Origin: Ignavibacteriota bacterium
GTDB lineage: Bacteria; Bacteroidota; Ignavibacteria; UBA10030
Length of the DNA stretch: 50,263 bases
NCBI GenBank assembly: GCA_003170475.1
Contig: PMZI01000083.1
Span: forward strand, 30,637-80,899
Direction of reading: 5' to 3'
In this document: piece by piece, positions 6,436 through 29,651 of the stretch
How the letters are laid out: every line of letters starts with the position of its first letter
Numbering within the stretch: position 1 is the stretch's first letter
Program-made: the position numbers and the translations under genes
The notes under the pieces: model-generated
What the model was told of the DNA's origin: nothing
Databases searched by the model: none
The model's input: only the letters and a program-made list of their open reading frames with translations

Positions 6436-6508
6436 CGCGGGGTGGAGCAATTGGAAGCTCGTCGGGCTCATAACCCGAAGGTTGCAGGTTCAAGTCCTGC
6501 CCCCGCTA
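6436..6508 (+). tRNA. Initiator tRNA-fMet (anticodon CAT)
   Basis: A 73-nt cloverleaf is read directly. The acceptor arm is cgcgggg with ccccgct and discriminator A. The D arm is GAGC/GCTC. The anticodon stem is TCGGG/CCCGA with CAT at 6469-6471. The T stem is GCAGG/CCTGC around TTCAAGT. Three consecutive G:C pairs at the bottom of the anticodon stem and the absence of a 1:72 pair (C1 opposite T72) are initiator hallmarks. The CCA end is not encoded. Confidence 0.96.
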
Positions 6509-6509
6509 C

Positions 6510-6548
6510 AAAAAAGCAACGCCCCCTCTTTGGGGGCGTTGCTTTTTT
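6510..6548. terminator. Bidirectional Rho-independent terminator after tRNA-fMet
   Basis: An A-tract, then gcaacgccccc (6516-6526), loop tcttt, gggggcgttgc (6532-6542) and a run of six T. The 11-bp GC-rich stem with A and T flanks can stop transcription from either side. Confidence 0.92.
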
Positions 6549-7187
6549 ATGTGACCAGGGAATGATTCGTCAGTCCTGTTTACCCCGTCGTTTTCTGACG
6601 GGGCCCCCGTGCTTCGACTCGCCCTAAAGGAGGGGACTCGCTCAGCACAGGCTATCCCGCTCAAAAGCAGCGGTTCCGCTTTGTGAATCCCGCCTATGAG
6701 CGGAATCCGAAGTGCGGGAGACTCAAAAAACGAGCAAGCTGTAAAGAAGAATCCCTGCCTGACCGATGTCAGTCGGGCAGGCCCGTCCGCCTGTTTGGTA
6801 CACGATGGCCGGGCGGACTCATCGGTGAAGACCCCGATCAAAAACATCGGGGCAGGTCGGTGGGCCCGTCCGCCCATCTTGGTCCAAGAAGGTCGGGCGG
6901 ACCCGCCCGACCCGGTTGCATCCACTATGGCGGGCGGGGATTCTTTGTTTTATTTAGGAATTTCTAAATCATACCGCATCTCTTACCTAAAAACAGACCT
7001 CGCGTTGCATTTGGTGCAAGGCAAGTGTAGTTTCAGAGGTAAACACGGTGCACGGATGCGCCCTGAATCAAAATAGAAAACTTTTTCGCTGTTCCATCAA
7101 CCGTAGCTTGGCGAAAAGCCGTTTTGAATGCTGGGGCCTAAGCGATGTCTGCCGCGCAGATGAACCGTTCGTACCGAGAGAGCATCG
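6549..7187. other. Noncoding stretch with GC-rich inverted repeats
   Basis: No convincing gene. It contains a small hairpin ccccgtc/gacgggg (6583-6589 with 6597-6603) and a cluster of GC-rich inverted repeats listed separately. The part after about 6960 is AT-richer and probably holds the promoter of the propeller gene. Confidence 0.6.
6779..6913. repeat. Two related GC-rich inverted repeats (gtccgcc...ggcggac)
   Basis: Copy 1 has gtccgcc (6785-6791) and ggcggac (6812-6818). Copy 2 has gtccgccc (6868-6875) and gggcggac (6895-6902), with an inner cttgg-t-ccaag stem and outer ggtcgg/ccgacc-like arms. The two loops are related (tttggtac... and cttggtcc...). This looks like an interspersed palindromic element present twice. 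Confidence 0.7.
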
Positions 7188-12293: not shown

Positions 12294-12623
12294 AATGACC
12301 TGCGGACCGGGTGTGATGGATTCGCGAAAACAGGAAACTCACTTTCTTCGATCTTATTAGGCACCCAAGCCGAGGATTCGATAGGCTACAAGCTTCTTTG
12401 CAATAACCCCCAGCCAGGAATCCCCGCTTTTTTCCTCGAGGTTAGCCATGCTTGCTTTTGTTCTAAGGCAAGCGTAGGTTTAGACCCAAGCACCGTGCCC
12501 GTCTTTGAATACTAATTCTGACCTGTGGAATGAAGGATTGAGAACCGTTGGATTCGTTGAAGCAATGAAAGGGTTCTTCTTGTCTCGTCGTTGATCTGGG
12601 AACCATTGAGCAAGGGAGGTTCT
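12294..12623. other. 330-bp intergenic stretch
   Basis: No gene is seen. A segment at 12465-12501 resembles one at 7018-7055 upstream of another T9SS-substrate gene (see findings). The Shine-Dalgarno gggagg at 12614-12619 belongs to the next gene. Confidence 0.5.
12614..12619 (+). promoter_or_regulatory. Ribosome binding site deciding a GTG start
   Basis: gggagg lies 4 nt before GTG 12624, directly ahead of a signal peptide. It favours that GTG over the upstream TTG at 12591. Confidence 0.7.
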
Positions 12624-15600
12624 GTGAAAGGTCACACGCTGCCTCACCGGCTTTGCTTCATCCTCATCATTGTTCTGACTTCTTCGCTTGCCTTCTCGCA
12701 AAACTTCCCCGGCGGATTCAACTTCTACTTGCCACCGAGGGACACAGGGAGCACACGGTTTATCCCTCAGTTTCCTCGCACGCCATTGACGGACCAAGAC
12801 TTTGTCTCGATCGGTGGTGATGGACATTTCTCTGTCCGCGGCAAGTCGATTCGGTTCTTTGGCACAAATGTACTCCCGTATGCCGCTTTTCCCGTGAAGT
12901 CGGAGGCTTGGTTCATCGCAGGAAGACTTCGCAAGATGGGATTCAATCTGGTGCGCCTCCATGGTATGGACAACCCATGGGGCACTTCTTTGGGTACGAG
13001 CTTGCTCTTTCCGCCGCCGGCCTCGACCCGCGAGTTAAACCCGACCACATTAGATAGGCTGGACAATCTCCTCGCCGAGTTGAAAAGCAACGGTATCTAT
13101 GCGGATATCAACTTGCATGTCAATCGTAGATTCACGTCTCTCGACGGCTTGCCTGATGCAGATTCTCTGCAGGACTATGGCAAGGCCATTAACTATTTCG
13201 ATCCGGCAGTACTTGCTTTGCACAAGGAGTATGCGAAAGAGCTCCTTACGCATGTGAGCCTGTATACCGGGAAATCGTTGGTGAACGATCCGGTCATGGC
13301 GATGGTGGAAATTACGAACGAGAATTGCCTCTATCACTATTGGAAGAACGGGAAACTCAAGCTCATTGCAGAAGGCGGCATCCTGACCGCGCGACATAAC
13401 AAGATGCTCGACACGCTCTGGTTGTCGTATCTTAGAAGCCGCTATGCCACCACATCAGCGCTCTCATCCGCCTGGAATGCAGGTTCGTACTACTTACTTG
13501 CCGGAAACCAGGTTGTCAACGGAACGTTTGAGAACAGTCCGTCTTTGATGCCTTGGATCATGGAGACACATTTTCCTGCCGACGCCTATATGGTAAGAGA
13601 CTCAACGACGCATTACTCGGGCAAATACTCGGCCAAGGTTGTTGTTACCAATACTACCGACACCGACTGGCATCTGCAGTGGAAGCAGATCGGACTAAAG
13701 ATGATCAAGGACACGGTGTACCTTGTTTCATTCGCCGCCCGATCCGACAGCGCGAGGGCCATACGAGCCTTCATTTCAGATGAGATCCCTCCTTGGACGA
13801 TCTACGAGAACCTCACAATTCAGCTGCAGCCTCAATGGACCACCTATTCATTCTATTTAAGGGCACCCGTAACTTCGGACACCCTGCGTTTGTCCTTTGC
13901 TGTCGGAGGGCAGGTTGGTGTCTACTGGTTCGATGACATTTCGATGATCCCTGTACGGAGTGGACTCCTTCCTGACGAGTCACTGGCCACCTCGTTCGTC
14001 CGACGTATTGATTATAGCGATTGCCATCAATTCTCAGATCAGCGTATACGGGATGTCTCCTCTTTCTACATCAAACTGGAAGATGATTATTTTGTCCAGA
14101 TGCACAGCTATCTCAAGGATACACTTAACGTGAGGGTCCCGATTGTCGGCACCAATTGGCTCATTGGTCCTGCAGATATGGCTGTGCAATCGAAGCTGGA
14201 CTTCATCGACAATCACGGCTACTGGGACATCCCGAACTCAGGCACGGGTCGGTCGACCGATCCAGGTTGGACCATCTCCAATACTGCTATGGTCAATTCG
14301 AAAGATGGAGGATCGATTTCCCAGATGGTTGCCGCTGTTCCGGCGAGCGGGAAACCTTTCACGATGAGTGAATACAATCACGCTTTCCCAAACCGATACC
14401 AGTCAGAACTGATGCTGTTCACCACCGGCTATGGTTCGTTTCACAGCGTCGACGCGTTCATGTATTTCAATTACTCCGGCGAACCTATTGATGACTGGGA
14501 TACTGATTGGGTAGAAGACTTCTATGAGTTCCATCGCAACTCGGCAATGATGGCATTGGTTCCTTCTTGCGCTCTTGCCTATCGCTCAGGCATGATCTCC
14601 CATGCTCGACAGCCTCTAATAATTAGCTATGCTCCAGACGACTACCTCTTGCTGCCTCGGCAATACAATCCCATGATTCCCTGGGCTGATCCCCCCAGTC
14701 AGTTTGATCCGCTGCTGGGTTTGAAGTACGGCATTCGGACAGGTTCGTTCTCAAGCACTACACCGTTAAATGCTTCGTCGCTTCCCTCTGTTCCAACAAA
14801 CCCGTATATCACGGACACGAAAGAGATCACATGGAATACAGATGGACTGCTCACGGTTGCCAGTGGCCGGTTTGCCGGTGTGACAGGATTCCTGAACAGT
14901 TTCATCAATCAGTCGGCTGGCCCTTTGACGATCAAAGCAGCGAGCGGATTTGCAACATTCACTTGGGTTTCATTGACAAACGATTCACTTCAATTTGCGC
15001 CCTTGTCGCTTCTGACGATCTCTACAAGGGTGCAGAACACGGGAATGGTGTGGGATGGGACAAGCAGCATCAACAACCATTGGGGGACTAGTCCCACCCA
15101 GGTAGAGCCGCTAAACCTCTCTCTCCAATTAGCGATGCAGGCCGACTCTATCCGGGTTTATCCGCTCGACACGTACGGTCGGGAAACAAAAGGATATACG
15201 ACATATCAGCCGACATCGTCGAATACCTTCGCGATCACGATCGATCAGAATCGCTTGCAGTCTATGTGGTTCGGTATTCAGGCATTCAAAGGCAATTTGA
15301 GACCTTCCTTCGTTTCCAAGATGCATGATACGACAATCGCTCAGAATCAAATACTCAACTTCACGTACACTGCAACGGATCTCTATAGCGATTCATTGAA
15401 GTATACCCTCGTCAATCCTCCCTCAGGTGCGTCGGTGACACAGGCGGGGGTTTTCAGCTGGAGGCCGTCCTACACTCAACAAGGAGCCTTCCCGATCGTT
15501 GCGGTTGTAAGCAAGAATTTCGGCTCATTCACCGACACGGCACGTTCGACGATCACAGTCACGAAGGTGAACGCGAAGCCGGTGCTGAACTTCCAGTCGC

Positions 15601-16163
15601 CTGCAGCTGGAGCAATGACAACTCTCTCCCGGAACAAGTCACAGACGTTTGCTGTGAGCGTGACGGATCTGAATGGTGATCCGCTCACGTACACCTGGAA
15701 AGTAAACGGCGGAGTGATGAAGACAGGTGCAGACACATTGTACACACAGGGCTTTTCGGATCCACATAATACACCCGAGTGGGTCCGAGTCATCTGGTCG
15801 AAACCAAACGGCGTGCTGCCTGATTCAGTGACGTGGAATTTTGTGATTACTCTCGTTTCGATGGATGAGAATGTGATCCCGACAGAGTTCGGGTTGGCCC
15901 AGAACTACCCGAACCCTTTCAACCCGTCAACAAACATACAGTTTGATCTGCCAAAGACGGTTCCCGTGACGCTGGAGATCTACAACATCTTGGGGAGTAG
16001 GATTCGCACATTGGTGAGGGGTGAATCTTTGAATGCCGGTCGATACACGGCGGTGTGGGATGGCAGGGATGAAGGGGGGACAAGCGTGGCGTCGGGGGCG
16101 TACTTTTGTCGGATCAGTGCAGGGGACTTCCACGCATCGAAGAAGCTGGCCTTGTTGCGATAG
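12624..16163 (+). CDS. T9SS-secreted GH5-like glycoside hydrolase with inserted CBM
   Basis: A 1179-aa secreted enzyme from the GTG at 12624. The signal peptide ends near LAFSQ (residue 26). A TIM-barrel cellulase-like catalytic region begins around residue 60 (IRFFGTNVLP; GFNLVRLHGMD). Likely acid/base Glu233 follows Asn232 in EITNENC; likely nucleophile is Glu583 in TMSEYNH. A CBM4/9-like jelly roll (about 297-441, VNGTFENS to WFDDISM) sits between these two residues, inside the barrel. A cadherin/Ig-like domain (about 900-975), another Ig-like segment, and a T9SS tail ([12 protein letters not shown]...KKLALLR) follow. The substrate is unknown; a plant beta-glycan is plausible. The tail and the 3' flank are nearly identical to those of the gene at 20.7 kb. 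Confidence 0.85.
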   Translation: MKGHTLPHRLCFILIIVLTSSLAFSQNFPGGFNFYLPPRDTGSTRFIPQFPRTPLTDQDFVSIGGDGHFSVRGKSIRFFGTNVLPYAAFPVKSEAWFIAGRLRKMGFNLVRLHGMDNPWGTSLGTSLLFPPPASTRELNPTTLDRLDNLLAELKSNGIYADINLHVNRRFTSLDGLPDADSLQDYGKAINYFDPAVLALHKEYAKELLTHVSLYTGKSLVNDPVMAMVEITNENCLYHYWKNGKLKLIAEGGILTARHNKMLDTLWLSYLRSRYATTSALSSAWNAGSYYLLAGNQVVNGTFENSPSLMPWIMETHFPADAYMVRDSTTHYSGKYSAKVVVTNTTDTDWHLQWKQIGLKMIKDTVYLVSFAARSDSARAIRAFISDEIPPWTIYENLTIQLQPQWTTYSFYLRAPVTSDTLRLSFAVGGQVGVYWFDDISMIPVRSGLLPDESLATSFVRRIDYSDCHQFSDQRIRDVSSFYIKLEDDYFVQMHSYLKDTLNVRVPIVGTNWLIGPADMAVQSKLDFIDNHGYWDIPNSGTGRSTDPGWTISNTAMVNSKDGGSISQMVAAVPASGKPFTMSEYNHAFPNRYQSELMLFTTGYGSFHSVDAFMYFNYSGEPIDDWDTDWVEDFYEFHRNSAMMALVPSCALAYRSGMISHARQPLIISYAPDDYLLLPRQYNPMIPWADPPSQFDPLLGLKYGIRTGSFSSTTPLNASSLPSVPTNPYITDTKEITWNTDGLLTVASGRFAGVTGFLNSFINQSAGPLTIKAASGFATFTWVSLTNDSLQFAPLSLLTISTRVQNTGMVWDGTSSINNHWGTSPTQVEPLNLSLQLAMQADSIRVYPLDTYGRETKGYTTYQPTSSNTFAITIDQNRLQSMWFGIQAFKGNLRPSFVSKMHDTTIAQNQILNFTYTATDLYSDSLKYTLVNPPSGASVTQAGVFSWRPSYTQQGAFPIVAVVSKNFGSFTDTARSTITVTKVNAKPVLNFQSPAAGAMTTLSRNKSQTFAVSVTDLNGDPLTYTWKVNGGVMKTGADTLYTQGFSDPHNTPEWVRVIWSKPNGVLPDSVTWNFVITLVSMDENVIPTEFGLAQNYPNPFNPSTNIQFDLPKTVPVTLEIYNILGSRIRTLVRGESLNAGRYTAVWDGRDEGGTSVASGAYFCRISAGDFHASKKLALLR

Positions 16164-18774
16164 GAATCATTGATGATGAGCCGCTGCTCGATGGAACGAG
16201 ATGCGAAAGATATTCTTGTCTTCGGCCATAGCTCACAAGAAACCTGGTGTGGCCGCGTTGCAGAATCTGCCAAGGGGAGCAATCAATGAAGACCCACACT
16301 GCCCTCACAGTCGCCCTGCTTCTGATTGCTCTGACCTCTCCATCATACCCCCAAGCCAAGAAATACTATGTGGATGCCACGGGCGGATCGGATGCTAACA
16401 GCGGCCTGTCACCTTCAGCGGCATGGAAGACGATTGACAAGGTCAACGCGTCAACGTTTGCTCCGGGTGATTCCATTCTCTTTAAAAGAGGAGAATCGTT
16501 CAGGGGAAGCCTGGTGCCATCCAGCGGATCGCCATCTGGATACATCACCTACAGTGCTTATGGAAGCGGAAACAAGCCGAAGTTGCTGGGCGCATACGAC
16601 AGGAGTTCCCCTTCAGACTGGACGAATCAAGGTGGGAACATCTGGAGGACGAAGTACCATTCCGTGAATCTTGTTGGTACTGAACTTCTGCCAAATCCTG
16701 ATTTCTCCAGTGACCTCTCTGCATGGGAAAAATACGACGATCCCTCCACGGGCGCTTCAACCGCCCTCTCAAGGACGACGGTGGCGGGTGAGTACTTCAC
16801 TGCACCCGCGGGTGCCAGGCTGGTTTGCACCAATCACGGAGATGGCTCCAATCCGTGGAACACAGACATACAGCTCTCTACGGTAGTCGGATCAATAAGA
16901 GCGCTAGCCTGGTACCGCCTCTCGTTCATGGCAAAAGCAACGCGACCTTTTGCGGTGCCTCAAAACAAGATAACGCTCCATCAGTATGCTTCTCCCTGGG
17001 CGAACTACTCGTCGTCTGTTTCACCCCCCGTAGCAATCACCACTCAATGGACTTCCAACGAGATCTATTTCCATGTGGACACCACGGCGAGCAACAGCAG
17101 GATCATTATTTATCTCGGCAGTGTGATGCCCAATGGCGACACACTGTTCATTGATGCAGTGAGTTTCAAAGAGTGTGATGCGAATCCCGAGCCTCTCAGC
17201 GTTGATGTTGGAAACCTCATTTTCAATAACGAAACATCCTGGGGAGTATTGGTGTGGAATAGGTCCGATCTGAATGCCCAAGGGGAGTTCTGGTACGATG
17301 AGGTGAACGATCTTCTTGAGATGTACTCAGTTGTCAATCCCGGAAGTTACTATTCGCACTTGGAGCTGGGTCTTGACGAACGCATCATTGACATGACAAG
17401 CAAGAGCTATGGGGTCTGCGATAATCTAGATTTGCGCTATGGGTCATTTGGAGTCGAAGGGGGCAATACACATCATCTCTGGATAAAGAATTGCGATGTC
17501 TCGTACATCGGCGGTGGAAATATTACTGGTGTACATCCACCTGGACGCGGAGGAAACGGTGTGCAATTCTGGAATGGAAACCATGACAACATTGTGGAGC
17601 GATGTACGTTCAATCAGATCTACGACGCTGCAGTGACCGCGCAGGGAAATGACTCTGCGGGATTTGATGTCTATAATATCTATTTCAGAAACAATGTTAT
17701 TAGGAACAGCGAATATTCGTTCGAATTTTGGGAAGGGGGAAGTCTGTCCCGGGCACATGACATCTATTTTGAGAACAATACTTGTTTGAATGCAGGCCGA
17801 GGTTGGGGGCACGCTCAAAGACCGGACCCCAATGGTACTCATCTGATGTTCTTTCCTTTCATCGCACAAACAACGAACGTCTACGTACGTAACAACATCT
17901 TCTTCGATGCTGCAGATCAATGCGTTCGATGGTGGAGAAAAGAGGACATAAGCAAGATCGTGGTTGAGCGCAATTGCTGGTACCAATCCAATGGTCTGTT
18001 GGCGAGAATTGATCTACAGGAGGGAATAGGGCCAGTCAACATAACCTACGACTATGCCACACAGTGGGACGCGTACCGAGCTGCGTCGAAGCAGGATTCC
18101 AATTCGATCCATGCTGATCCACTTCTGAATGCCGATCTCACACTTCAGGCAGCTTCTCCATGCATCGATGCAGGAAAGTCGCTGACGACCGTGCAGATGG
18201 ACTTCAATGGCACCGCACGGCCGCAGGGAGCGGCATATGACATCGGTGCATTTGAGGCTCCAGCGTGGTTGATTGCTCCTCCGACACTTCTGGCACCGAC
18301 AGACAACATGAAGCAGGTACCGATCAAACCGATATTGAGTTGGAAGAAATTGCCCAGAGCTCAGAAATACACGCTCGCGATATCTCTTGCGCCGACGTTT
18401 GCGAGTTTGGTGTTGATTGACACGACCATGATCGATACGACAAGAGCGATCGGACCCCTTCAATATGGCACGATTTACTATTGGCGAGTGTGTGCGCAGA
18501 ATGCCGGAGGGACGAGCGATTGGTCGCAAGTGAGGAGCTTTACCACGATCGCTGCAACACCACTGGGGCCAGCATACTATGTTTCACCAAATGGAAACGA
18601 CTCGAATCCTGGAACGGAAGCGCTCCCGTGGAAGACACTTGCGAAAGCTGCTTCGACGGCCACCGCCGGAGTGACTGTGTTCATCAAGCAAGGCACCTAC
18701 CACGAGCGCCTTGTGCCTGTGAACTCCGGGACTGTAAACGGACCAATAACATTTACATCCTACCCCGGTGATTC
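15905..18774 (+). repeat. Long direct repeat, copy 1 (T9SS tail, spacer, beta-helix start)
   Basis: This runs from the T9SS tail of the GH5-like gene, through the spacer, into the beta-helix gene. The DNA closely matches 23097-25960 in the same order, including noncoding sequence such as cttgtcttcggccatagctc. The end is where the second module (VPVNSGT...YPGDS) begins to diverge; exact limits need alignment. Confidence 0.85.
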
Positions 18775-20653
18775 TGTTACGGTCGATGGCACTGGAATGA
18801 TATTCCCCGGCCCACGGGATGGTGTCAGGGCTTGGACGGGGTTAGTACACGTTCAGGGTTTGCAATACATCAAAATATCCGGTCTGAGAGTTCTAAACTC
18901 GGACGCTACTGGAATATTCGTTGCACAAAGCAGCTCTGTCACTATCAGGCAAAACTATACAGAGAATACGTATTCGCCCGGAATACAGGCAGACTACAGT
19001 GATAACGTCTTGGTTGAAGCCAACGAAGTCGTACGGGCATGTACGGGCCACGATCAAGAGTGCATTTCGTTTTCATCCACGAACCACTTTGAGATAAAAA
19101 ACAATCGCGTTCATGACGGCCTGCAGGAGGGAATCGATGTGAAAGTAGGTTGCTCGAATGGAACCATCTGCTACAATGAAGTGTACAGCCAGACAGGACG
19201 TCCTGCTGGAATCTACATAGACGCATTCAGCGGTCACCAGTTCAACATCGACGTGTACGAAAACATTTGCCACGACAACGGTATTGGTATGACTGTTGGC
19301 TGTGAGAACGGGGGATTTCTTGAGGCAGTCAGAATACACCACAATAGAGTGTATAACAACGGCAGAGGTTTCTGGCTGGCGGGTGTCGGCGTGTCCTCAG
19401 CAAAACACCTCTTCAATAACATATGGATTTACGGAAATGAGTTTCATGACAATGAATTCGGCCTCGAAATAGGCGGCTACACGGGAACGGACATTGACAG
19501 CATTGGCGTTTTCAGCAATCTGATCTATCGTAACAAAGGTGTGGGAGTGCGGATCACTCGCTATGACGGACCGACAGGCGATTTTTCGATCCGAAACGTT
19601 TCGGTGATCAACAACACGATCTATGGAAACGGCACAGTGGGAAATGGGTGGGACGCAGATAATGGGGGCATCAATATTTTCAACATCACTCCTGTGAATA
19701 TGGTGGTTGGAGACAACATTCTCAGCAATAACACCGTTTGCACTATCCATGTTTCGCCGGAGGTTCTGTCTGGGAGTCTCACGATCGACTTCAATTTCTT
19801 CGATGGGTTCCGGAATTTTCTGGACGAGAACGCGGGGACAAATGCCGTCTATGGGATTCCATCATTTGTCGATTCCTTGAAGAACGATTATCATTTGCGT
19901 GCTACGTCGCCCTGTATTGACAAAGGAAATCCCAGTCAAGTGTACAACGATCCAGCAGATCAGAGCAAACCTGGATATGCTCTATATCCTGCTCAGGGGA
20001 CGCTGCGAAACGATATGGGTGCTTACGGCGGTCCGTATGCAACTTCCTGGGACCTGGCAACTTCTTTGGCAAAACCACAAACCCCGTTGCCCAACTCACC
20101 GGCTGACTCTGCGAGAGGTGTCTCAACAAAGCCGACGTTGAGTTGGAACATGGTCTTGGGATCGGACAGATACAGAGTGCAGCTCTCGACCAACGTCAGC
20201 TTTGGCACGAAGGTCATGGACGATTCAACGGTGACGGATTGCTATCGGCAGGTGGGTCCGCTCCAGATCAACACGACATACTATTGGCGAGTGAGTGCAG
20301 CAAATGTCGCCGGGACGAGCAGCTACTCTGCAGTGAGGTCATTCACGACGGGCGTTGCATCGGCTGTTGAGCAACTGGATGGTGCAGTCCCAAGAGAATA
20401 TGCTTTGAGCCAGAACTATCCCAACCCCTTCAATCCCGCCACGACAATCCAGTTCGCATTGCCGAAAAGCAGCTATGTAAGCCTGAAGGTGTACGACGCT
20501 TTGGGGAGAGAAATCACAATGTTAGTATCGCAGCAACTTAATCCCGGATATTTTACGATACGGTGGAACGCGAACGTTTCGAGCGGCATCTATTTCTACC
20601 GCCTGCAGGCGGGGAACTACGTGGCGACGAAGAAAATGATTTTGATTAAGTGA
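16286..20653 (+). CDS. T9SS-secreted two-module parallel beta-helix protein
   Basis: A 1455-aa secreted protein. AAGGGGAG upstream and a signal peptide (about 1-21, SPSYPQ) fix the ATG. Module A begins KKYYVDATGGSDANSG (DUF1565-like) with an inserted CBM-like jelly roll (about 130-290), then beta-helix coils rich in NN, VERC and YFRNN steps up to about 655. An FN3-like domain lies at about 665-755. Module B starts about 760 with YYVSPNGNDSNPGTE and runs as a second beta-helix with NRVHDGLQEGIDVK to about 1255. A second FN3 (about 1264-1355) and a T9SS tail (from about 1370, ending KKMILIK) follow. The fold suits polysaccharide lyases or binding proteins; no catalytic residues can be named. 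The stop overlaps a GTG ahead of the next gene. Confidence 0.9.
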   Translation: MKTHTALTVALLLIALTSPSYPQAKKYYVDATGGSDANSGLSPSAAWKTIDKVNASTFAPGDSILFKRGESFRGSLVPSSGSPSGYITYSAYGSGNKPKLLGAYDRSSPSDWTNQGGNIWRTKYHSVNLVGTELLPNPDFSSDLSAWEKYDDPSTGASTALSRTTVAGEYFTAPAGARLVCTNHGDGSNPWNTDIQLSTVVGSIRALAWYRLSFMAKATRPFAVPQNKITLHQYASPWANYSSSVSPPVAITTQWTSNEIYFHVDTTASNSRIIIYLGSVMPNGDTLFIDAVSFKECDANPEPLSVDVGNLIFNNETSWGVLVWNRSDLNAQGEFWYDEVNDLLEMYSVVNPGSYYSHLELGLDERIIDMTSKSYGVCDNLDLRYGSFGVEGGNTHHLWIKNCDVSYIGGGNITGVHPPGRGGNGVQFWNGNHDNIVERCTFNQIYDAAVTAQGNDSAGFDVYNIYFRNNVIRNSEYSFEFWEGGSLSRAHDIYFENNTCLNAGRGWGHAQRPDPNGTHLMFFPFIAQTTNVYVRNNIFFDAADQCVRWWRKEDISKIVVERNCWYQSNGLLARIDLQEGIGPVNITYDYATQWDAYRAASKQDSNSIHADPLLNADLTLQAASPCIDAGKSLTTVQMDFNGTARPQGAAYDIGAFEAPAWLIAPPTLLAPTDNMKQVPIKPILSWKKLPRAQKYTLAISLAPTFASLVLIDTTMIDTTRAIGPLQYGTIYYWRVCAQNAGGTSDWSQVRSFTTIAATPLGPAYYVSPNGNDSNPGTEALPWKTLAKAASTATAGVTVFIKQGTYHERLVPVNSGTVNGPITFTSYPGDSVTVDGTGMIFPGPRDGVRAWTGLVHVQGLQYIKISGLRVLNSDATGIFVAQSSSVTIRQNYTENTYSPGIQADYSDNVLVEANEVVRACTGHDQECISFSSTNHFEIKNNRVHDGLQEGIDVKVGCSNGTICYNEVYSQTGRPAGIYIDAFSGHQFNIDVYENICHDNGIGMTVGCENGGFLEAVRIHHNRVYNNGRGFWLAGVGVSSAKHLFNNIWIYGNEFHDNEFGLEIGGYTGTDIDSIGVFSNLIYRNKGVGVRITRYDGPTGDFSIRNVSVINNTIYGNGTVGNGWDADNGGINIFNITPVNMVVGDNILSNNTVCTIHVSPEVLSGSLTIDFNFFDGFRNFLDENAGTNAVYGIPSFVDSLKNDYHLRATSPCIDKGNPSQVYNDPADQSKPGYALYPAQGTLRNDMGAYGGPYATSWDLATSLAKPQTPLPNSPADSARGVSTKPTLSWNMVLGSDRYRVQLSTNVSFGTKVMDDSTVTDCYRQVGPLQINTTYYWRVSAANVAGTSSYSAVRSFTTGVASAVEQLDGAVPREYALSQNYPNPFNPATTIQFALPKSSYVSLKVYDALGREITMLVSQQLNPGYFTIRWNANVSSGIYFYRLQAGNYVATKKMILIK

Positions 20654-20661
20654 GGGTACAT

Positions 20662-23355
20662 ATGAGGATGCGAATCTGCTCATTGCTCATTCTGCTTTCT
20701 TTAGTCTTGGCTCTGCCATCTCGATCACAATGGATACAGACCAGCGGACCATATGGTGGTTACATTCATTCTTTCGCCGCCTTCGGCACTAACCTTTTTG
20801 TCGGAACCTTGGGCGGCGGTATTTATCTCTCCACCAATAACGGCGCACGCTGGACAGCGGCCAATACGGGTCTAACGAACACTTCTGTCTCTTCTTTTGC
20901 CGTCTTAGGCACGAATCTCTTTGCCGGAACCAATGGCGGCGTCTTTCTTTCCACCAACAACGGTACAAGCTGGACAGCTGTCAATGTGGGCTTAACGAAC
21001 ACCTATGTCAATGCTCTTGCTGTCGCCGGCACAAATCTCTTTTCGGGGACTTCCGGTGGCGGTGTCTTTCTTTCCACAAACAACGGCACAAGCTGGACGG
21101 CAGCTAGTACCGGTTTGACGAACATGAACGTCCATACCGTTGCCGTCGCCGGCACAAATCTCTTTGCTGGAACTTATGGTGGCGGGGTGTTTCTTTCGAC
21201 CAACAATGGTACGAGTTGGACTGGGCTGGGTACTGGGTCGACGAACACTTATGTCAACGCTCTTGCCGTCTCTGGCACAAATCTCTTTGCCGGGACTAAT
21301 GGCGGCGTCTTTCTTTCGACGAACAATGGGGCAAGTTGGACAACAGCTAATACCGGCTTGACAAACACCTCTGTTCTAACTCTTGCCGTCTCCAGCATGA
21401 ACATATTTGCTGGGACTTACGGGGGCGGTGTGTTTCTCTCCACCAATAACGGCGCCAGCTGGACTTTGGCCACTTCGGGCATGACAAACACTCAAGTCAA
21501 CGTTCTCGCCGCTCTCGGCACGAATCTTTTTGCAGGAACCGATGGCAATATCTTCCTTTCTACCAATAACGGCACAAGCTGGACCGTGGCGAATACCGGC
21601 TTGACGAGCACTACCATCTCTGGTTTTGCCCTCTCAGGCACGAATCTCTTTGCAGGGACTTCTGGTGCCGGTGTCTTTCTTTCGACCAACTCCGGCACGA
21701 GTTGGATCTTGGCCAGTACGGGGATGACGAACACGACGGTCTTGTCTCTCGCTCTCTCCGGCACGAATATCTTCGCCGGGACTAATGGCAATGGGGTTTT
21801 TCTTTCCACCAACAACGGCACAAGTTGGACTGCGGTCAACGCCGGATGGCCACAGTATGTTGGTGTCTATGCTCTTGCCGCCTCGGGCACAAATCTCTTT
21901 GCCGGGACTAATGGTAACGGCGTTTTTCTTTCCACAAACAATGGCACAAGCTGGACTGTGGTCAATAATGGCTTGACAAACACTAGTGTCATTGCTCTTG
22001 CGGTCTCCGGGGCAAACATCTTTGCGGGGACTAATGGCAACGGCGTTTTTCTTTCCACGAACAATGGCACAAGTTGGGTTGCGGCCAATACGGGCTTGAC
22101 GAACGCTTCTGTCTATTCTCTTGCTGTCCTGGGCACGAGTCTCTTTGCTGGGACTTTTGGTAACGGGGTCTTTCTTTCGACCGACAATGGGACAAGTTGG
22201 ACTTCCGTCGGACTATCGAACACGTATGTCTATTCTTTCGCTGTCTTAGGCACGAGTCTCTTTGCTGGGACTTTTGGTAACGGAGTCTTTCTTTCGACCA
22301 ATAATGGGACAAGCTGGACTGCTGTCAATGCGGGCTTGACAAACACTAATCTCAATGCTCTTGCTGTCGCCGGCACAAACCTCTATGCTGGGATTTACGG
22401 TGGCGGGGTCTGGAGTCGGTCGTTGTCGGAGATGCTCATCTCAAAGATTGCGTTAACCTCTGGGAACAGTCAGACAGCAGCAGTCAAAATGATTCTTCCA
22501 ACTCCTTTCGTCGTGACGGCGACGGATGCGGGCGGTAACCCGATGTCAGGCGTAACCGTGAGTTTTGCCATTTCATCCACGCCAACCGGAGCGAGCGGAC
22601 AATCCTTGAGCACTACTACGACCACTACCAACAGCAGTGGACAGGCCTCAACGGTATTAACACTAGGAAGCATGGCTGGGACGTATAGTGTGACGGCAAC
22701 ATCGACTGGATTGAATGGGAGCCCGGTGACGTTTAGCGCAACAGCGACAAATCCGGCTCCGGTATTGTCGAGTATCTCAACGAACCGAGCCGGCAGGGGG
22801 AGCAGAATCAATGTGGTCTTGACCGGGTCCAACTACATTCAAGGGGTGACAACAACGAGTTTTGGGCCGGACATAACGGTCAATACGCAAGATTTCCCTA
22901 TAAGTTCTTTGATAGTTGTCAATATTTCGATCAACAGTACTGGAGCAATTGGTACACGGGATGTGAGTGTGACGAATCCTGGTCCTGGAGGAGGGACGTC
23001 GACATTGAGTGGAGCATTTACAGTTGACGCATCCACACCGACAAGTGTAGAGAGCATGTTGGGTGCGGTTCCGGAGGAGTTTGTGCTCCATGAGGCTTAC
23101 CCGAACCCGTTCAACCCATCAACGAACATACAGTTTGATTTGCCAAAGACGGTTCCCGTGACGCTGGAGATCTACAACATCTTGGGGAGTAGGATTCGCA
23201 CATTGGTGAGGGGTGAATCTTTGAATGCCGGTCGATACACGGCTGCATGGGATGGCAGGGATGAAGGGGGGACAAGTGTGGCGTCGGGGGTGTACATTTG
23301 TCGGATCAGCGCGGGGGACTTCCAAGCATCGAAGAAAATGGCCTTATTGCGATAG
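20662..23355 (+). CDS. T9SS-secreted 14-repeat Asp-box propeller with Ig and IPT domains
   Basis: An 897-aa surface protein. The ATG at 20662 follows GAGGG and the previous stop by 8 nt, so it is translationally close to the beta-helix gene. A signal peptide (MRMRICSLLILL..., ending PSRSQ) precedes fourteen very uniform repeats of 40-41 aa (NLFAGTNGNGVFLSTNNGTSW). Thirteen have Asp-boxes; the last ends WSRSLSE without one, giving 2 x 7 blades. Then come a Big_1-like Ig domain (about 595-690, FVVTATDAGGNPMSGVTVSF), an IPT/TIG-like domain (about 695-790, GSNYIQGVTTTSFG) and a T9SS tail ending KKMALLR. No enzyme motif is seen; adhesion or binding is inferred. The repeats are much more alike than in the 7.2-kb paralogue, so expansion was recent. 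Confidence 0.92.
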   Translation: MRMRICSLLILLSLVLALPSRSQWIQTSGPYGGYIHSFAAFGTNLFVGTLGGGIYLSTNNGARWTAANTGLTNTSVSSFAVLGTNLFAGTNGGVFLSTNNGTSWTAVNVGLTNTYVNALAVAGTNLFSGTSGGGVFLSTNNGTSWTAASTGLTNMNVHTVAVAGTNLFAGTYGGGVFLSTNNGTSWTGLGTGSTNTYVNALAVSGTNLFAGTNGGVFLSTNNGASWTTANTGLTNTSVLTLAVSSMNIFAGTYGGGVFLSTNNGASWTLATSGMTNTQVNVLAALGTNLFAGTDGNIFLSTNNGTSWTVANTGLTSTTISGFALSGTNLFAGTSGAGVFLSTNSGTSWILASTGMTNTTVLSLALSGTNIFAGTNGNGVFLSTNNGTSWTAVNAGWPQYVGVYALAASGTNLFAGTNGNGVFLSTNNGTSWTVVNNGLTNTSVIALAVSGANIFAGTNGNGVFLSTNNGTSWVAANTGLTNASVYSLAVLGTSLFAGTFGNGVFLSTDNGTSWTSVGLSNTYVYSFAVLGTSLFAGTFGNGVFLSTNNGTSWTAVNAGLTNTNLNALAVAGTNLYAGIYGGGVWSRSLSEMLISKIALTSGNSQTAAVKMILPTPFVVTATDAGGNPMSGVTVSFAISSTPTGASGQSLSTTTTTTNSSGQASTVLTLGSMAGTYSVTATSTGLNGSPVTFSATATNPAPVLSSISTNRAGRGSRINVVLTGSNYIQGVTTTSFGPDITVNTQDFPISSLIVVNISINSTGAIGTRDVSVTNPGPGGGTSTLSGAFTVDASTPTSVESMLGAVPEEFVLHEAYPNPFNPSTNIQFDLPKTVPVTLEIYNILGSRIRTLVRGESLNAGRYTAAWDGRDEGGTSVASGVYICRISAGDFQASKKMALLR
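20780..22410 (+). repeat. Tandem DNA repeat, 14 units of about 120-123 bp (propeller blades)
   Basis: Units share a long motif ctctttgccgggact-aatggc-aacggcgtttttctttcc. Spacing between units is 120 or 123 bp. High nucleotide identity between units means copy number could change by slippage or recombination. Confidence 0.85.
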
Positions 23356-25960
23356 GAATCATAGATGATGAGCCACTACTCAATGGAACCAGATGCGAGA
23401 AGCATTCTTGTCTTCGGCCATAGCTCACAAGAGACCCCGTGTGGCCGCTATGCAGAATCTGACAAGGGGAGCAACCCATGAAGACCCACACTGCAATCGC
23501 GGTCGTGCTGCTTCTGGCTGCTTGGCCTCTTGATTCAGATGCTCAGGCGAAGAAGTACTATGTAGATGCCACCGGCGGGTCGGATGCCAACAGCGGCTTG
23601 TCACCTTCAGTAGCGTGGAAAACAATTGACAAGGTCAACGCGTCGACGTTTGCGCCGGGGGACTCCATCTTGTTCGAGAGAGGGGAAGCGTTCAGGGGAA
23701 GCCTGGTGCCGTCCAGCGGATCGCCATCCGGATATATCACCTACAGCGCTTATGGAAGCGGGAACAAACCGAAATTGCTGGGCGCATACGACAGGAGTTC
23801 CCCTTCAGACTGGACGAATCAGGGGGGAAACATTTGGAGGACAAAATACAAGTCGGTGAATCTTGTTGGGTCTGAACTTTTGCCGAATCCCGATTTTTCA
23901 AACGACCTCTCAGGCTGGCAAAAATATGACGACCCCACCACTGGTGCTTCAAGTGTCTTTTCAAGGACGACAACGGCGGGTGAGTACTACACAGGACCTG
24001 GCGGAGCGAGGTTGGTTTGTATCAATCGCGGATCCAACCAGTGGAACTCAGACATACAGCTTTTCACAGCAGTTGGATCAATAAAGGCGCTCTCTTGGTA
24101 CCGTCTCACATTCATGGCAAGAGCCACGCGGCCCTTTGCGATGCCCGAGAACAAGATAGCCTTGCACCAGTACGGTCCTCCCTTTACGCCGTACGCGTCC
24201 GCCGTAGCGCCCCCCATAGCGATCACGAGTCAGTGGACTTCATACGAAGCATATTTTCATGCGAGCACAACAGCGAGCGACGGGAGGGTCACGTTCTATT
24301 TTGGCAATATGATGCCCAATGGCGACACACTCTTCATCGATGCATTGAGCTTCAAAGAGTGTGATGAAAATCCCGCCCCACTCAATGTTGACGTCGGGAA
24401 CATCGTTTTCAACAATGAAACATCGTGCGGTGTATTGGTCTGGAACAGGTCGGACCTGAACTCCCAGGGGAAGTTCTGGTACGATGAAGACAATGATCTG
24501 CTCGAGATGTATTCTGTCAGTAACCCTGGGACGTACTATTCGCACATTGAGCTCTGCATGGATTGGGACATTATTAGTGTTGTCAACAAAAGCTACTTCA
24601 TTTGCGAAAATCTGGACATTCGAGACGGGGGAGGCAACGGATTCCAGGCAGCGAAGACACATCATTCCTGGGTAAAGAAATGTGACTTCTCATACATCGG
24701 AGGCGGCAACATCACCGGTGAGCACCCGAGGATACGAGGGGGGAATGGTGCTACGTTTTGGATTGGAAACCATGACAATATCATTGAGACTTGCACGTTC
24801 AATCAGATCTACGATACCGGCATGAGTGAACAGGGAGTAGACAGCGCCGGTTTCGAAGTGTACAATATCTACTTCAGAAACAACCTTATCAGTAACTGCG
24901 AGAACTCTTATGAGCTCTGGGCGCAAAGAGAATTGTCTACAGCTCATGACCTCTATTTTGAAAACAATACCTGCCTGGACGCTGGAAAAGGGTGGGGCCG
25001 TTCTCAACGGCCGAATCCGAATGGGGTTCATGTGCAGATATCGCCCATTCTCGCAAAGTCCTGGAATATCTACATACGGAACAACGTCTTCTACAACGCT
25101 GTGGATTACGGCATACGCTATTGGTGGATGGAGGACACCAAGCACATCATAGTCGACAACAATTGCTGGTACCAATCGAGCGGATCGTTCGTGAGGATTG
25201 ACAATTCTTCTTCGTGGCAGACCGTCAACATCATCTACGATTACTCGCAGTGGGATACCTATCGGGCAGCGACGAAGCAGGATTCCAATTCGATCCATGC
25301 CGATCCACTTCTGAATGCCGATCTGACTCTCCAGCCGGCATCTCCATGCATCGATGCCGGGAAGTCGCTAACGACAGTGCAGACGGACTACAATGGCACA
25401 GCGCGTCCGCAGGGTGCGGCATATGACATCGGTGCGTTTGAGGCTCCAGCCTGGTTGGTCGCCCCTCCGACTCTTCTGTCACCAACAGACAACATGAAGC
25501 AAGTTCCGATCAATCCGATGCTGACCTGGAAGAAACTGCCCAGGACTCAAAAATACTCGCTTGCGGTATCTCTGACGCCGACGTTTTCCAACCTGGTCTT
25601 GAGTGACACGACTGTGGTCGATACAACTAGAATGATCGGACCTCTTCAATATGGCACGATTTACTATTGGCGCGTATGTGCGAAGAATATCGGAGGGACG
25701 AGCGATTGGTCGTCGGTGCGGAGTTTCACGACGATTGCAGCAACGCCACTCGGTCCGTCATACTACGTTTCACCAAACGGTAATGACTCGAATCCGGGGA
25801 CGGAATCGCTCCCCTGGAAGACACTGGCGAAAGCTGGTTCGGCGGCTACAGCTGGTGTGACTGTATTCATCAAGCAAGGCGTTTACCGGGAGCGCCTTGT
25901 CCCTGTGAACTCCGGGACGGCAGACGCTCCAATCACATTCACATCCTACCCTGGCGATTC
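23097..25960 (+). repeat. Long direct repeat, copy 2 (T9SS tail, spacer, beta-helix start)
   Basis: Second copy of 15905-18774: the T9SS tail of the propeller gene, the spacer (taggaatcatagatgatgag...), and the N-terminal A module of the 2053-aa beta-helix gene. The order and noncoding parts are preserved. Confidence 0.85.
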
Positions 25961-28900
25961 AGTGACTATCACCGGCGTTGGAATAGAATTCCCTTCCGGA
26001 CAATCCGGTGATAAGTGGTGGAGCGGGCTCATACACGTTGAAGGACTGATGTATATCAAGATATCCGGACTCAGAGTTGTGAACTCTGAGACGAGTGGGA
26101 TCCTTGTGACTCAAAGTCGTCACATTACGATCGAGAAGAATTACACAGATAGCACGTACTCCTCTGGAATAGTAGTCAATGGTAGTTACGACATAGCGGT
26201 TGACGCCAATGAGGTTGCACACGCATGCACGGGCCTCGATCAAGAATGTGTTTCCATTATGTCAACAGACACCTTTGAAATAAAGAACAATCGCGTTCAT
26301 GATGGATTGCAGGAAGGGATTGATGTGAAGGTAGGATCCTCCAATGGGATCGTGTGCACAAATGAAGTGTATAACCAGACAGGGCGCCCTCCTGGGATCT
26401 ACATAGACGCTTTCAGCGGCCATGAGTTCAATATCGACGTATTTGACAACATCTCTCATGATAACGGCTTCGGTTTTGATATAGGCTGCGAGGATGGCGG
26501 GCTCCTGCAAGCGATCAAGATACATCACAACAAAGCGTATAACAATGGTAGAGGTCTCTGGGTAGGAGGCTGGGGAGTAGCTGGGGTGAAACATCAGTTC
26601 AGTAACATATCAATCTATGGTAATGAGTTCTATAACAACGATGTGGGGCTTGAAATAGGCGGCTACACAGGAACGGACATTGACAGCATTGGCGTTTTCA
26701 ACAACCTGATCTATCGCAATAAAGGTGTGGGGGTGCGGATCACGCGCTATGACGGACCGACAGGCGATTTTGCGATCCGAAACGTTTCGGTAATCAACAA
26801 CACGATCTATGGAAACGGCACAGTGGGAAATGGGTGGGACGCAGATAATGGGGGCATAAATATTTTCAACATCACTCCTGTGAATATGGTGGTTCGAGAC
26901 AACATTCTCAGCAATAATACCGTTTGCACTATCCATGTTTCGCCGGAGGTTCTCGCTGGGAGTCTCGCGATCGACTACAATTTCTTCGATGGGTTTCGGA
27001 ATTTTCTGGACGAGACAGCAGGGACAAACGCAGTCTATGGAATTCCATTGTTCGTCGATTCTTTGAGGAATGATTATCATCTACGGTCTGCTTCACCATG
27101 TATTGACAAAGGAAATCCCGCTCAGCAATACAACGATCCAGCAGATCAGAGCAAACCTGGATATGCTCTATATCCTGCTCAGGGCACACTACGAAACGAC
27201 ATGGGTGCTTACGGTGGTCCGTATGCGAGTTCGACGGATGTGGTGATCACTGCGCCGCCATCGGCGCCAAGCCTTGCCGTACCGGCGAACGGTGCAAAGA
27301 GTGTGTCGATCAGTCCAACGCTGAGCTGGGAAAGAGCAATGGGAGCATCGACATATCGATTACAGGTATCGCTTGATTCATGGTTCTCAATGATCGTCGT
27401 AGACGATTCAACGATGAGCGAAACACTCAGACCCATCGGGCCGCTGCAGAATGGAACGACATTCTTCTGGCGTGTCAACGGGAAGAACGAAGGAGGGACG
27501 AGCGACTGGTCGTCGGTGCGGAGTTTCACGACGATTGCAGCAACGCCACTCGGACCGGCGTACTACGTTTCACCGATCGGCAACGACTCAAATCCGGGAA
27601 CAGAAACGCTGCCTTGGAAGACACTTGCGAAAGCTGGCTCGGCGGCGACAGCTGGTGTGACTGTATTCATTAAGCAAGGCACCTACAACGAGCGCCTTGT
27701 GCCAGTGAACTCCGGGACGGCAGACGGACCCATCACATTCACATCCTATCCGGGTGATTCCGTGACCATCGATGGAACGGGGATGATATTCCCCGGTCCA
27801 CGAGATGGAGTTAGGGCTTGGACGGGACTAGTACATGTTCAAGGTCTGAAATACATCAAAATATCCGCTCTCAGGGTTCGAAACTCGGACGCTACTGGAA
27901 TCTTCGTTGCACAGAGCAGCAACGTCACCATTGGGGGAAACTACACGGACAGTACTTACTCTCCTGGAATACAAGTAGACTACAGCGATAATGTTGTGGT
28001 CCAAGCCAATGAAGTTGTTCATGCATGCACGGGTCTAGATCAAGAATGCATTTCCTTCACGTCAACGCGCAACTTTGAGATAAAGAACAATCGCGTTCAT
28101 GATGGCCTGCAAGAAGGAATCGATGTGAAGGTGGGTTGCTCAAATGGAACCGTGCGCAACAATGAAGTGTACAACCAGAAAGGGCGCCCTGCTGGAATCT
28201 ACATAGACGCTTTTAGCGGCCATGAGTTCAACATCGACGTATTTGAAAACATCTGCCACGACAACGGAATTGGTATTACTGTAGGCTGCGAGAATGGAGG
28301 GCTCCTTGAGGCAATCAAGATACATCACAACAAAGTGTACAACAATGGTAGGGGTTTTTGGCTGGCAGGCGTTGGTGTCTCTACTGCGAGCCATCTTTTC
28401 AACAACATACTAGTCTATGGCAATGAGTTCTATAACAACGAATTCGGATTTGAATTGGGCGGCTACACTGGGACAAACATTGACACCGTCAAAGTCTTCA
28501 ATAACCTGATCTATCGCAATAAAGGTGTGGGGGTGCGGATCACACGCTATGACGGACCGTCAGGCGATTTCGCGATACGAAACGTTTCGGTAATCAACAA
28601 CACGATCTATGGAAACGGTACAGTGGGAAATGGGTGGGACGCTGACAATGGAGGCATAAACATTTTCAACATCACTCCAGTGAATATGGTGGTTCGAGAC
28701 AACATTCTCAGCAATAACACCGTTTGCACTATCCATGTTTCGCCCGAGGTTCTCGCTGGGACTCTCGCGATCGACTACAATTTCTTCGATGGGTTCCGGA
28801 ATTTTGCGGACGAGAAAACAGGGACAAACGCAGTCTATGGAGTTCCCGCGTTCGTCGATTCACTACGCAACGATTATCACCTACGGACTTCCTCACCATG

Positions 28901-29639
28901 TATTGACAAAGGAAATCCCGCTCAGCAATACAACGATCCAGCAGATCAGAGCAAACCCGGATATGCTCTATATCCTGCTCAGGGCACGCTGCGAAATGAT
29001 ATGGGTGCTTACGGCGGCCCCTATGCCACTTCCTGGGACCTTTCAACTTCGCTGACAAAACCACAAGCGCCATTGCCCAGCTCACCGGCTGACTCTGCGA
29101 GAGGCGTATCAACAAAACCAACGTTGAGTTGGAACATGGTCTTGGGATCGGACAGATACAGAGTGCAACTCTCGACCAGCGCAAGTTTTAGCAGTAAACT
29201 CGTTGATGATTCGACGGTGACGGATTGCTATCGGCAGGTGGGTCCGCTTCAGGCCAACACGACATACTATTGGCGAGTGAGCGCAACAAATGTCGCCGGG
29301 ACGAGCAGTTATTCCGCTGTGAGGACATTTACGACGGGCGTTGCATCAGCTGTCGAGCAACAGGATGGTGCGATACCGAGAGAATATGCTTTGAAACAGA
29401 ATTATCCTAATCCGTTTAACCCATCCACGACCATCCGGTTTGAATTGCCGAAGAGCAGCTATGTAAGCCTGAAGGTGTTCGACGCCTTGGGGAGAGAAAT
29501 CACAACATTGGTATCGCAGGAACTTAATCCCGGATATTTCACGATACGATGGAACGCAAATGTATCGAGCGGAATCTACTTCTATCGCCTTCAGGCAGGA
29601 CAATATGTCGAGACGAAGAAGATGGTGCTGCTGCGCTAG
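23478..29639 (+). CDS. T9SS-secreted three-module giant parallel beta-helix protein
   Basis: A 2053-aa secreted protein. The signal peptide (about 1-22, ending DSDAQ) and AAGGGGA upstream support the ATG. Order: module A with CBM-like insert and beta-helix (about 24-655), FN3 (about 663-755), module B1 (about 759-1250), FN3 (about 1255-1345), module B2 (about 1358-1850), FN3 (about 1861-1955), and a T9SS tail (from about 1969, ending KKMVLLR). Each B module opens YYVSPxGNDSNPGTE and carries VHDGLQEGIDVK and SVINNTIYGNG. B1 and B2 share long stretches of nearly identical DNA, showing internal duplication. It is a paralogue of the 16.3-kb protein with one extra B module. Function is probably polysaccharide binding or cleavage; unproven. 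Confidence 0.9.
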   Translation: MKTHTAIAVVLLLAAWPLDSDAQAKKYYVDATGGSDANSGLSPSVAWKTIDKVNASTFAPGDSILFERGEAFRGSLVPSSGSPSGYITYSAYGSGNKPKLLGAYDRSSPSDWTNQGGNIWRTKYKSVNLVGSELLPNPDFSNDLSGWQKYDDPTTGASSVFSRTTTAGEYYTGPGGARLVCINRGSNQWNSDIQLFTAVGSIKALSWYRLTFMARATRPFAMPENKIALHQYGPPFTPYASAVAPPIAITSQWTSYEAYFHASTTASDGRVTFYFGNMMPNGDTLFIDALSFKECDENPAPLNVDVGNIVFNNETSCGVLVWNRSDLNSQGKFWYDEDNDLLEMYSVSNPGTYYSHIELCMDWDIISVVNKSYFICENLDIRDGGGNGFQAAKTHHSWVKKCDFSYIGGGNITGEHPRIRGGNGATFWIGNHDNIIETCTFNQIYDTGMSEQGVDSAGFEVYNIYFRNNLISNCENSYELWAQRELSTAHDLYFENNTCLDAGKGWGRSQRPNPNGVHVQISPILAKSWNIYIRNNVFYNAVDYGIRYWWMEDTKHIIVDNNCWYQSSGSFVRIDNSSSWQTVNIIYDYSQWDTYRAATKQDSNSIHADPLLNADLTLQPASPCIDAGKSLTTVQTDYNGTARPQGAAYDIGAFEAPAWLVAPPTLLSPTDNMKQVPINPMLTWKKLPRTQKYSLAVSLTPTFSNLVLSDTTVVDTTRMIGPLQYGTIYYWRVCAKNIGGTSDWSSVRSFTTIAATPLGPSYYVSPNGNDSNPGTESLPWKTLAKAGSAATAGVTVFIKQGVYRERLVPVNSGTADAPITFTSYPGDSVTITGVGIEFPSGQSGDKWWSGLIHVEGLMYIKISGLRVVNSETSGILVTQSRHITIEKNYTDSTYSSGIVVNGSYDIAVDANEVAHACTGLDQECVSIMSTDTFEIKNNRVHDGLQEGIDVKVGSSNGIVCTNEVYNQTGRPPGIYIDAFSGHEFNIDVFDNISHDNGFGFDIGCEDGGLLQAIKIHHNKAYNNGRGLWVGGWGVAGVKHQFSNISIYGNEFYNNDVGLEIGGYTGTDIDSIGVFNNLIYRNKGVGVRITRYDGPTGDFAIRNVSVINNTIYGNGTVGNGWDADNGGINIFNITPVNMVVRDNILSNNTVCTIHVSPEVLAGSLAIDYNFFDGFRNFLDETAGTNAVYGIPLFVDSLRNDYHLRSASPCIDKGNPAQQYNDPADQSKPGYALYPAQGTLRNDMGAYGGPYASSTDVVITAPPSAPSLAVPANGAKSVSISPTLSWERAMGASTYRLQVSLDSWFSMIVVDDSTMSETLRPIGPLQNGTTFFWRVNGKNEGGTSDWSSVRSFTTIAATPLGPAYYVSPIGNDSNPGTETLPWKTLAKAGSAATAGVTVFIKQGTYNERLVPVNSGTADGPITFTSYPGDSVTIDGTGMIFPGPRDGVRAWTGLVHVQGLKYIKISALRVRNSDATGIFVAQSSNVTIGGNYTDSTYSPGIQVDYSDNVVVQANEVVHACTGLDQECISFTSTRNFEIKNNRVHDGLQEGIDVKVGCSNGTVRNNEVYNQKGRPAGIYIDAFSGHEFNIDVFENICHDNGIGITVGCENGGLLEAIKIHHNKVYNNGRGFWLAGVGVSTASHLFNNILVYGNEFYNNEFGFELGGYTGTNIDTVKVFNNLIYRNKGVGVRITRYDGPSGDFAIRNVSVINNTIYGNGTVGNGWDADNGGINIFNITPVNMVVRDNILSNNTVCTIHVSPEVLAGTLAIDYNFFDGFRNFADEKTGTNAVYGVPAFVDSLRNDYHLRTSSPCIDKGNPAQQYNDPADQSKPGYALYPAQGTLRNDMGAYGGPYATSWDLSTSLTKPQAPLPSSPADSARGVSTKPTLSWNMVLGSDRYRVQLSTSASFSSKLVDDSTVTDCYRQVGPLQANTTYYWRVSATNVAGTSSYSAVRTFTTGVASAVEQQDGAIPREYALKQNYPNPFNPSTTIRFELPKSSYVSLKVFDALGREITTLVSQELNPGYFTIRWNANVSSGIYFYRLQAGQYVETKKMVLLR
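25752..29035 (+). repeat. Internal duplication of beta-helix module B (B1 and B2)
   Basis: B1 (about 25752-27230) and B2 (about 27550-29035) are arranged head to tail within one gene. Long segments are nearly identical, for example 26690-27010 and 28490-28810 (aataaaggtgtgggggtgcg; cagtgggaaatgggtgggac). Similar modules also occur at 18567-20060, 29740-31215 and 31545-32995. Confidence 0.85.
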
Positions 29640-29651
29640 AGAGGTTCGACA

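Follow-up and report, generated by a model that had tools for sequence, protein, structure and literature searches.

Evidence consistent with local copying of a sorting tail and spacer between neighbouring type IX secretion cargo genes in an Ignavibacteriota genome

Gene conversion between paralogs leaves a short block of sequence that is more alike than its flanks. For cargo of the type IX secretion system (T9SS), the portions of the Porphyromonas gingivalis reports cited here describe removal of the sorting tail by PorU (PMC4804311) and recombination at hagA-kgp(-rgpA) resulting in deletions and domain rearrangements (PMC9328147, PMC5266723). Homology-facilitated illegitimate recombination has been proposed, in the cited part of another study, for the exchange of type VI secretion system effectors (PMC5361080). 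The present analysis concerns five consecutive T9SS cargo genes, designated A to E, in a 50,263-nucleotide stretch of an Ignavibacteriota bacterium (assembly GCA_003170475.1, contig PMZI01000083.1, positions 30,637 to 80,899 of the forward strand). This stretch is referred to as the window and all coordinates are positions within it; it lies within contig C45 of genome G000, a draft assembly of 4.08 Mb in 85 contigs. About 0.4 kb, made up of the tail of A, the spacer that follows it and the first codons of B, appears, on a balance that tips slightly in favour of this reading, to have been copied over the junction of C and D.

The locus resembles hagA-kgp, as that system is presented in the cited passages, in that nearby T9SS cargo genes are unlike upstream and near-identical at their 3′ ends including the sorting tail (here 94% over 258 bases, 7.2 kb apart), and in that recombination between such genes reshapes the locus. 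It differs in that P. gingivalis uses long shared adhesin repeats, whereas here only the tail, stop codon, spacer and a few codons are common to the A-B and C-D junctions, and in that the chimera here is a full-length gene from a different bacterial lineage. As in conversion between paralogs, similarity within a short block exceeds that of the flanking sequence, but only the right flank is a paralog pair; on the left, where the flanks are unlike, the block ends in a short conserved motif. One long homologous anchor combined with a joint of little homology at the other end recalls homology-facilitated illegitimate recombination as outlined in the part of the source cited above; that model was described for incoming DNA, whereas here source and target are on the same contig at a distance of 7.2 kb and the joint falls on a coding motif that the tails have in common. 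No report of such a tail-plus-spacer exchange was found in the portion of the literature on T9SS recombination that was covered. The features concerned are listed below.

12591-16163, + strand: gene A, whole, with GH5-like, CBM and Ig-like domains
12591-15905, + strand: body of gene A, GH5-like with CBM_4_9 and cadherin/Ig-like domains (open reading frame, Pfam)
15906-16163, + strand: T9SS type A sorting tail of gene A, long class, including the stop codon (TIGR04183, Pfam; 94% DNA identity to 23098-23355); putative donor
16164-16285, + strand: spacer between A and B, non-coding, presumed to hold the ribosome-binding site of B (86% identity to 23356-23477)
16286-20653, + strand: gene B, beta-helix with a short-class T9SS tail (Pfam/NCBIfam; full-length relative in genome G003, 70.7% identical)
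16302-16307, + strand: putative right end of the patch at the A-B junction (changepoint of informative sites)
20671-23355, + strand: gene C, whole, BNR propeller with Big_1/IPT-like domains
20671-23097, + strand: body and linker of gene C, the putative native part of the chimera, with BNR propeller, Big_1 and IPT-like domains (C-terminal body 63% identical to G003:C205)
23098-23119, + strand: left joint, from own to A-like sequence in the YPNPFNP-coding stretch of C (changepoint 23118/23119)
23098-23355, + strand: T9SS tail of gene C, long class, putatively received (TIGR04183; match to the A tail)
23356-23477, + strand: C-D spacer, putatively a received copy (86% identity to the A-B spacer)
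23478-29639, + strand: gene D, B paralog carrying an additional internal beta-helix/fn3 module; the patch takes in the first codons of D (to about 23498)
29652-33602, + strand: gene E, two beta-helix/fn3 modules and a short-class tail as in B and D (self-BLASTN, domain matches)

The original prediction, made by reading the sequence alone, was of a duplicated segment of tail, spacer and next gene with an offset of about 7.2 kb. Indeed, self-BLASTN aligned 15906-20040 with 23098-27226 at 79.2% identity (E-value reported as 0) and an offset of 7192 bases. Two unlike genes, the GH5-like A and the BNR propeller C, end in the same tail, and the similarity in DNA takes in the spacer and the beginning of the next gene as well as the tail, as had been claimed. 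Without any gap, the tails (15906-16163 and 23098-23355) differed at 16 of 258 positions (94% identity) and the 122-bp spacers at 17 of 122 (86% identity); the first 515 bases of the next gene differed at 89 positions. The copies share an identical run of 103 bases at 15949-16051. The left edge of the match is sharp, A and C being unlike directly upstream of the tail. Similarity of the spacer is at the DNA level, with 105 of 122 positions matching against at most 53 of 122 for the next best ungapped match in the window, and DNA queries of 596 and 258 bases matched only these two places in their own genome (E <= 0.001), every candidate from the first look having been scored. Since the copies differ at about 6-21% of positions, a falsely repeated stretch of contig is unlikely. 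The upstream GTG frame of B (16247) runs into a stop in the D copy, from which the spacer was taken to be non-coding and the aligned ATGs at 16286 and 23478 to be the likely starts. The right end that had been placed at 18774/25960 did not hold as a boundary: the paralogs B and D continue to align, 18506-20638 with 27492-29624, at 84.0%. The extra internal module of D (25692-27226) resembles 27492-29026 at 82.7%, and such modules are also common to E.

Tail and next gene had been assigned to a single copying event. Silent divergence, taken from Nei-Gojobori counts and from four-fold and spacer sites, was 11/65 in the tail and 17/122 in the spacer and rose to 85.5/183 in the first 240 codons of B/D, the B/D head (Fisher's test against the head, p = 2.6e-5 for the tail and p = 1.6e-9 for the spacer). 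A single changepoint over 242 sites fell at 16282/16283, with divergence 0.127 before and 0.388 after (0 of 1000 permutations); 16345/16357 and a few other places were nearly as good. The shared segment thus holds two ages, 0.127 in tail plus spacer against 0.388 in the B/D head, which is at odds with one copying event, and a uniform 2.9-kb duplication was rejected by this changepoint. Because the silent divergence of tail and spacer is the lower, the B and D genes look older than the tail and spacer that they adjoin. None of the overlapping windows of tail size along collinear B/D (0/649 and 0/631) was as low as the tail (silent divergence, pS, 0.17). The patch has the defined ends and the divergence below that of its flanks by which a conversion tract is recognised.

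The composition of C is chimeric, and its left joint was located by comparison with a locus (C205) of G003, a same-genus relative of G000. The C-terminal body of C is 63% identical to G003:C205 and the linkers are nearly alike; both carry TPTSVES..GAVP.EFVL, followed in G003:C205 by a tail of another class (45% identical to the C tail in the search, 49% without gaps). Among three-way informative sites (C, A, G003:C205), the fraction siding with A was 0.19 up to 23118 and 0.95 from 23119 onward, and the changepoint 23118/23119 had a likelihood ratio of 58.3 (0 of 2000 permutations). Relatives elsewhere were drawn from 98 loci (L064-L161), a small and non-random sample gathered largely by tail and C searches: five of six distinct A-body relatives beside a tail had tails 51-67% identical to that of A, the sixth 34%, while all seven C-body relatives had tails 35-47% identical to that of C, none of them A-like. 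In a tree of 18 hand-picked tails (85 columns, three of 15 inner branches starred), which leaves out the A-body relative with the 34% tail and three of the seven C-body relatives, a 100/100 branch parts A, C and the tails of A-body relatives from the tails of four C-body relatives. Body and linker of C match G003:C205 while its tail class follows A, and C is therefore likely a chimera of its own body and linker with an A-class tail, joined within 23098-23119. We infer that copying ran from A to C, a direction absent from the original prediction.

The right joint was approached with B, D and the G003 relative of B. D equals B at all eight informative sites up to 16306 but at 21% of the later ones (0 of 2000 permutations). 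Of the 16 informative sites from 16325 to 16363, 13 group D with G003 against B; part of the right-edge signal may be a change in G003 and part a change in B. G003 has one full-length relative of B (70.7% identical), which follows a NUDIX ortholog (85%); NUDIX matches were found in two of six genomes of the genus, G000 included. A itself is missing between NUDIX and the B relative in G003, as is any A-like tail or spacer. The NUDIX-B linkage is present in both genomes, and synteny alone does not give the order of events. Over 733 codons, pS was 0.473 for B-G003, 0.546 for D-G003 and 0.557 for B-D, with B-D exceeding B-G003 in seven of nine windows. The B/D split thus probably does not postdate the species split. 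At 28/187, tail plus spacer was below the silent divergence of the G000-G003 NUDIX pair (49/180; p = 0.0047). In G003, much of the sequence separating NUDIX from the relative of B is also matched by repeat-rich intergenic DNA at 6499-6988, which lies upstream of a propeller gene at 7188.

The copying model that we favour would run as follows. The five genes A-B-C-D-E would already have held B and D as old paralogs, diverged before the copying. The patch would extend from the YPNPFNP codons of the A tail through the stop codon and the spacer to about the seventh codon of B, with the right exchange in the long B/D homology and the left exchange in the short stretch that is conserved where the sorting tail begins. 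C would thereby have lost its own tail and gained that of A. Such non-reciprocal copying would be gene conversion, or else an exchange anchored by homology at one end and joined through short homology at the other. The new tail is predicted still to export C. If the tail is cut off here as in P. gingivalis, mature C would be little changed.

Other histories could place the same tail and spacer beside C. Unequal crossover at the tail motifs of A and C would give a tandem B-C duplication (A-t-B-C-t-B'-C', t denoting the tail), after which C' was lost and B' became D, so that one event at a conserved motif would account together for the left joint, the tail, the spacer and the B-like gene. This predicts one age, whereas the B/D head looks older than tail plus spacer; D (stop ends 29639) and E (start 29652) are separated by just 12 bases, which leaves no remnant of C' there, and a later homogenisation of the junction alone would be needed. 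We judge it unlikely. Quite improbable in our estimation is an old duplication giving A-B and A'-D, after which a deletion from the tail motif of C to that of A' fused C to the A' tail and removed A'. Deletion between short direct repeats is mechanically simple, yields an exact left joint and has a precedent in the hagA-kgp deletions of P. gingivalis, as described in the cited part of PMC9328147, but it predicts B/D-like divergence in tail and spacer, which was not seen, and residues 1-890 of A have no second match in their own genome at E <= 1e-10, three other own-genome matches of A covering just its C-terminal Ig region. Both histories account for the left joint as well as copying does, and either of them, followed by local homogenisation, is possible.

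We accord little probability to a single duplication, of 2.9 kb or of a whole gene, after which tail and spacer simply evolved more slowly than the gene body. Similarity does run unbroken from the tail into B/D and silent rates vary along these genes, but slower evolution of the tail than of the body is not consistent across other related pairs: among 15 other body-related pairs, six of which come from one group of four genes and are not independent, four-fold divergence of the tail equalled or exceeded that of the body in nine and was less in six. Strong constraint on a leader is also unlikely because the spacer was not found upstream of the B relative in G003, and the mismatch between the tail class of C and that of its body relatives would be left unexplained. 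An assembly error that put the wrong tail on C is highly improbable; the genome is a draft of 85 contigs and repeats can mislead assemblers, but 35 differences among the 401 bases of the tract show that the C copy is not A sequence placed twice.

Several results weigh against local copying from A as set out above, or against the order of events that it assumes. The test of the right edge rests on G003, whose leader differs and may itself have been replaced. In the last two of the nine head windows B-D is closer than B-G003, so that the two splits, of B from D and of the species, do not follow one order throughout the gene. Taken by itself, the tail does not significantly postdate the species split (p = 0.13). 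Windows with pS of 0.17 or less occur elsewhere in the array (53/427 for B against the first module of D, 14/427 between D modules and 47/205 for D/E), and these low-divergence patches may reflect either exchange or variation in rate. Among five beta-helix modules (10 pairs, the G003 module being omitted because its start motif was not found), a longest-run test detected no significant conversion (lowest value 111/2000). The permutation tests treat sites as independent. A propeller of G004 (C139) likewise carries a tail of the A class (79-81%), which leaves room for a source other than A. No relative with an unconverted C-D junction was found: a C-body relative with another tail (G003:C205) was recovered, but no neighbouring pair of C and D.

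The spacer was also considered in other roles. Folding was no better than that of shuffled sequences to a notable degree (z -1.51 and -0.29), and a structured RNA was rejected on these ordinary folds. No sigma-70-type match lies inside the spacer, and a promoter was rejected in a test limited to that type. As an old conserved leader it was rejected in a search of 100 genomes including G000, where matches in other genomes left it uncovered except for two weak ones that reach just its start (query 195-264 in G017 and 190-268 in G071); three candidates per genome were scored, which makes this absence a soft one. The candidate leader motif CACCGTGCCC occurred at chance level (6 matches against 3.3 expected; 13 of 100 shuffles had as many).

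A census of tails in G000 placed the A-C pair in a wider setting. Matches to PF18962 numbered 99 at E <= 0.01, and 94 of these tails were usable, five having been dropped for misfits of motif or length (C48:49045, C69:57962, C50:14537, C14:234594 and C50:12114). With similarity defined at the DNA level as E <= 1e-6, 175 of 4371 pairs were similar, A-C most strongly, and A-C was the only tail-similar pair with unlike upstream sequence (tblastx, 600 bases) and a shared next gene (blastn, 900 bases). Three genes with unlike bodies (C66:17430, C66:25483 and C62:70019) have tails of 81-88% DNA identity over 200-206 bases, the similarity stopping with the tail. A tentative and rather doubtful generalisation is that the conserved start of the removable tail acts as a general recombination socket, at which unlike cargo genes of this lineage repeatedly swap tails and sometimes a spacer, the mature protein being unchanged; if this were true, the trio would be further cases.

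Two other features of tail regions were observed. Short in-frame insertions (DASTSSARGF in L064, that is G003:C198, and GDASTGSAAGF in G000:C49:9638) lie at roughly corresponding positions inside the tails of different T9SS genes, which looks like in-frame translation of a dispersed repeat. In several pairs of T9SS genes the 60-95 bases after the stop are about 77-85% alike, a shared 3′ element outside the coding tail (G000:C14:3006, C22:4037, C22:5388, C31:1790, C31:5431, C48:103277 and C66:17430).

Assignment of the genes to T9SS followed from profile matches. All five genes match the T9SS type A tail model above its cut-off at the C-terminus, and A (34.2 bits) and C (33.6 bits) exceed the TIGR04183 cut-off of 23 bits. 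A search for secretion machinery, which covered the PorU-type sortase and SprA, found both in the same genome (974.9 bits against a cut-off of 420, and 1102.8 against 200). The true start of A is likely a GTG near 12624, and its Cellulase match (21.7 bits) is slightly below the Pfam cut-off of 23.5. Gene order on the + strand is NUDIX (9401), GH106 (10197), A, B, C, D, E and a gene with an FGE-sulfatase domain. The same beta-helix module is present once in B and, within 23478-33602, twice in D and twice in E; the tails of D and E are 95% identical as protein. The region 9401-47469 holds GH106, GH5-like, alpha-L-arabinofuranosidase and esterase-like genes as well as beta-helix genes with weak, partial pectate-lyase matches, and several of all these have T9SS tails. 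This content suggests a surface locus for a plant polysaccharide such as pectin.

T9SS genomes hold many unlike proteins with one interchangeable type of tail (99 matches here), and the gain or change of a tail by a protein is seldom seen in the act. At this locus an exchange can be located at both its ends, on the left to within about 20 bases at the tail start. The case is also a warning that identical tails and spacers are no proof that whole neighbouring genes were copied with them. It provides a concrete and testable route by which tails may spread, namely recombination at the tail motif anchored by a neighbouring paralog.

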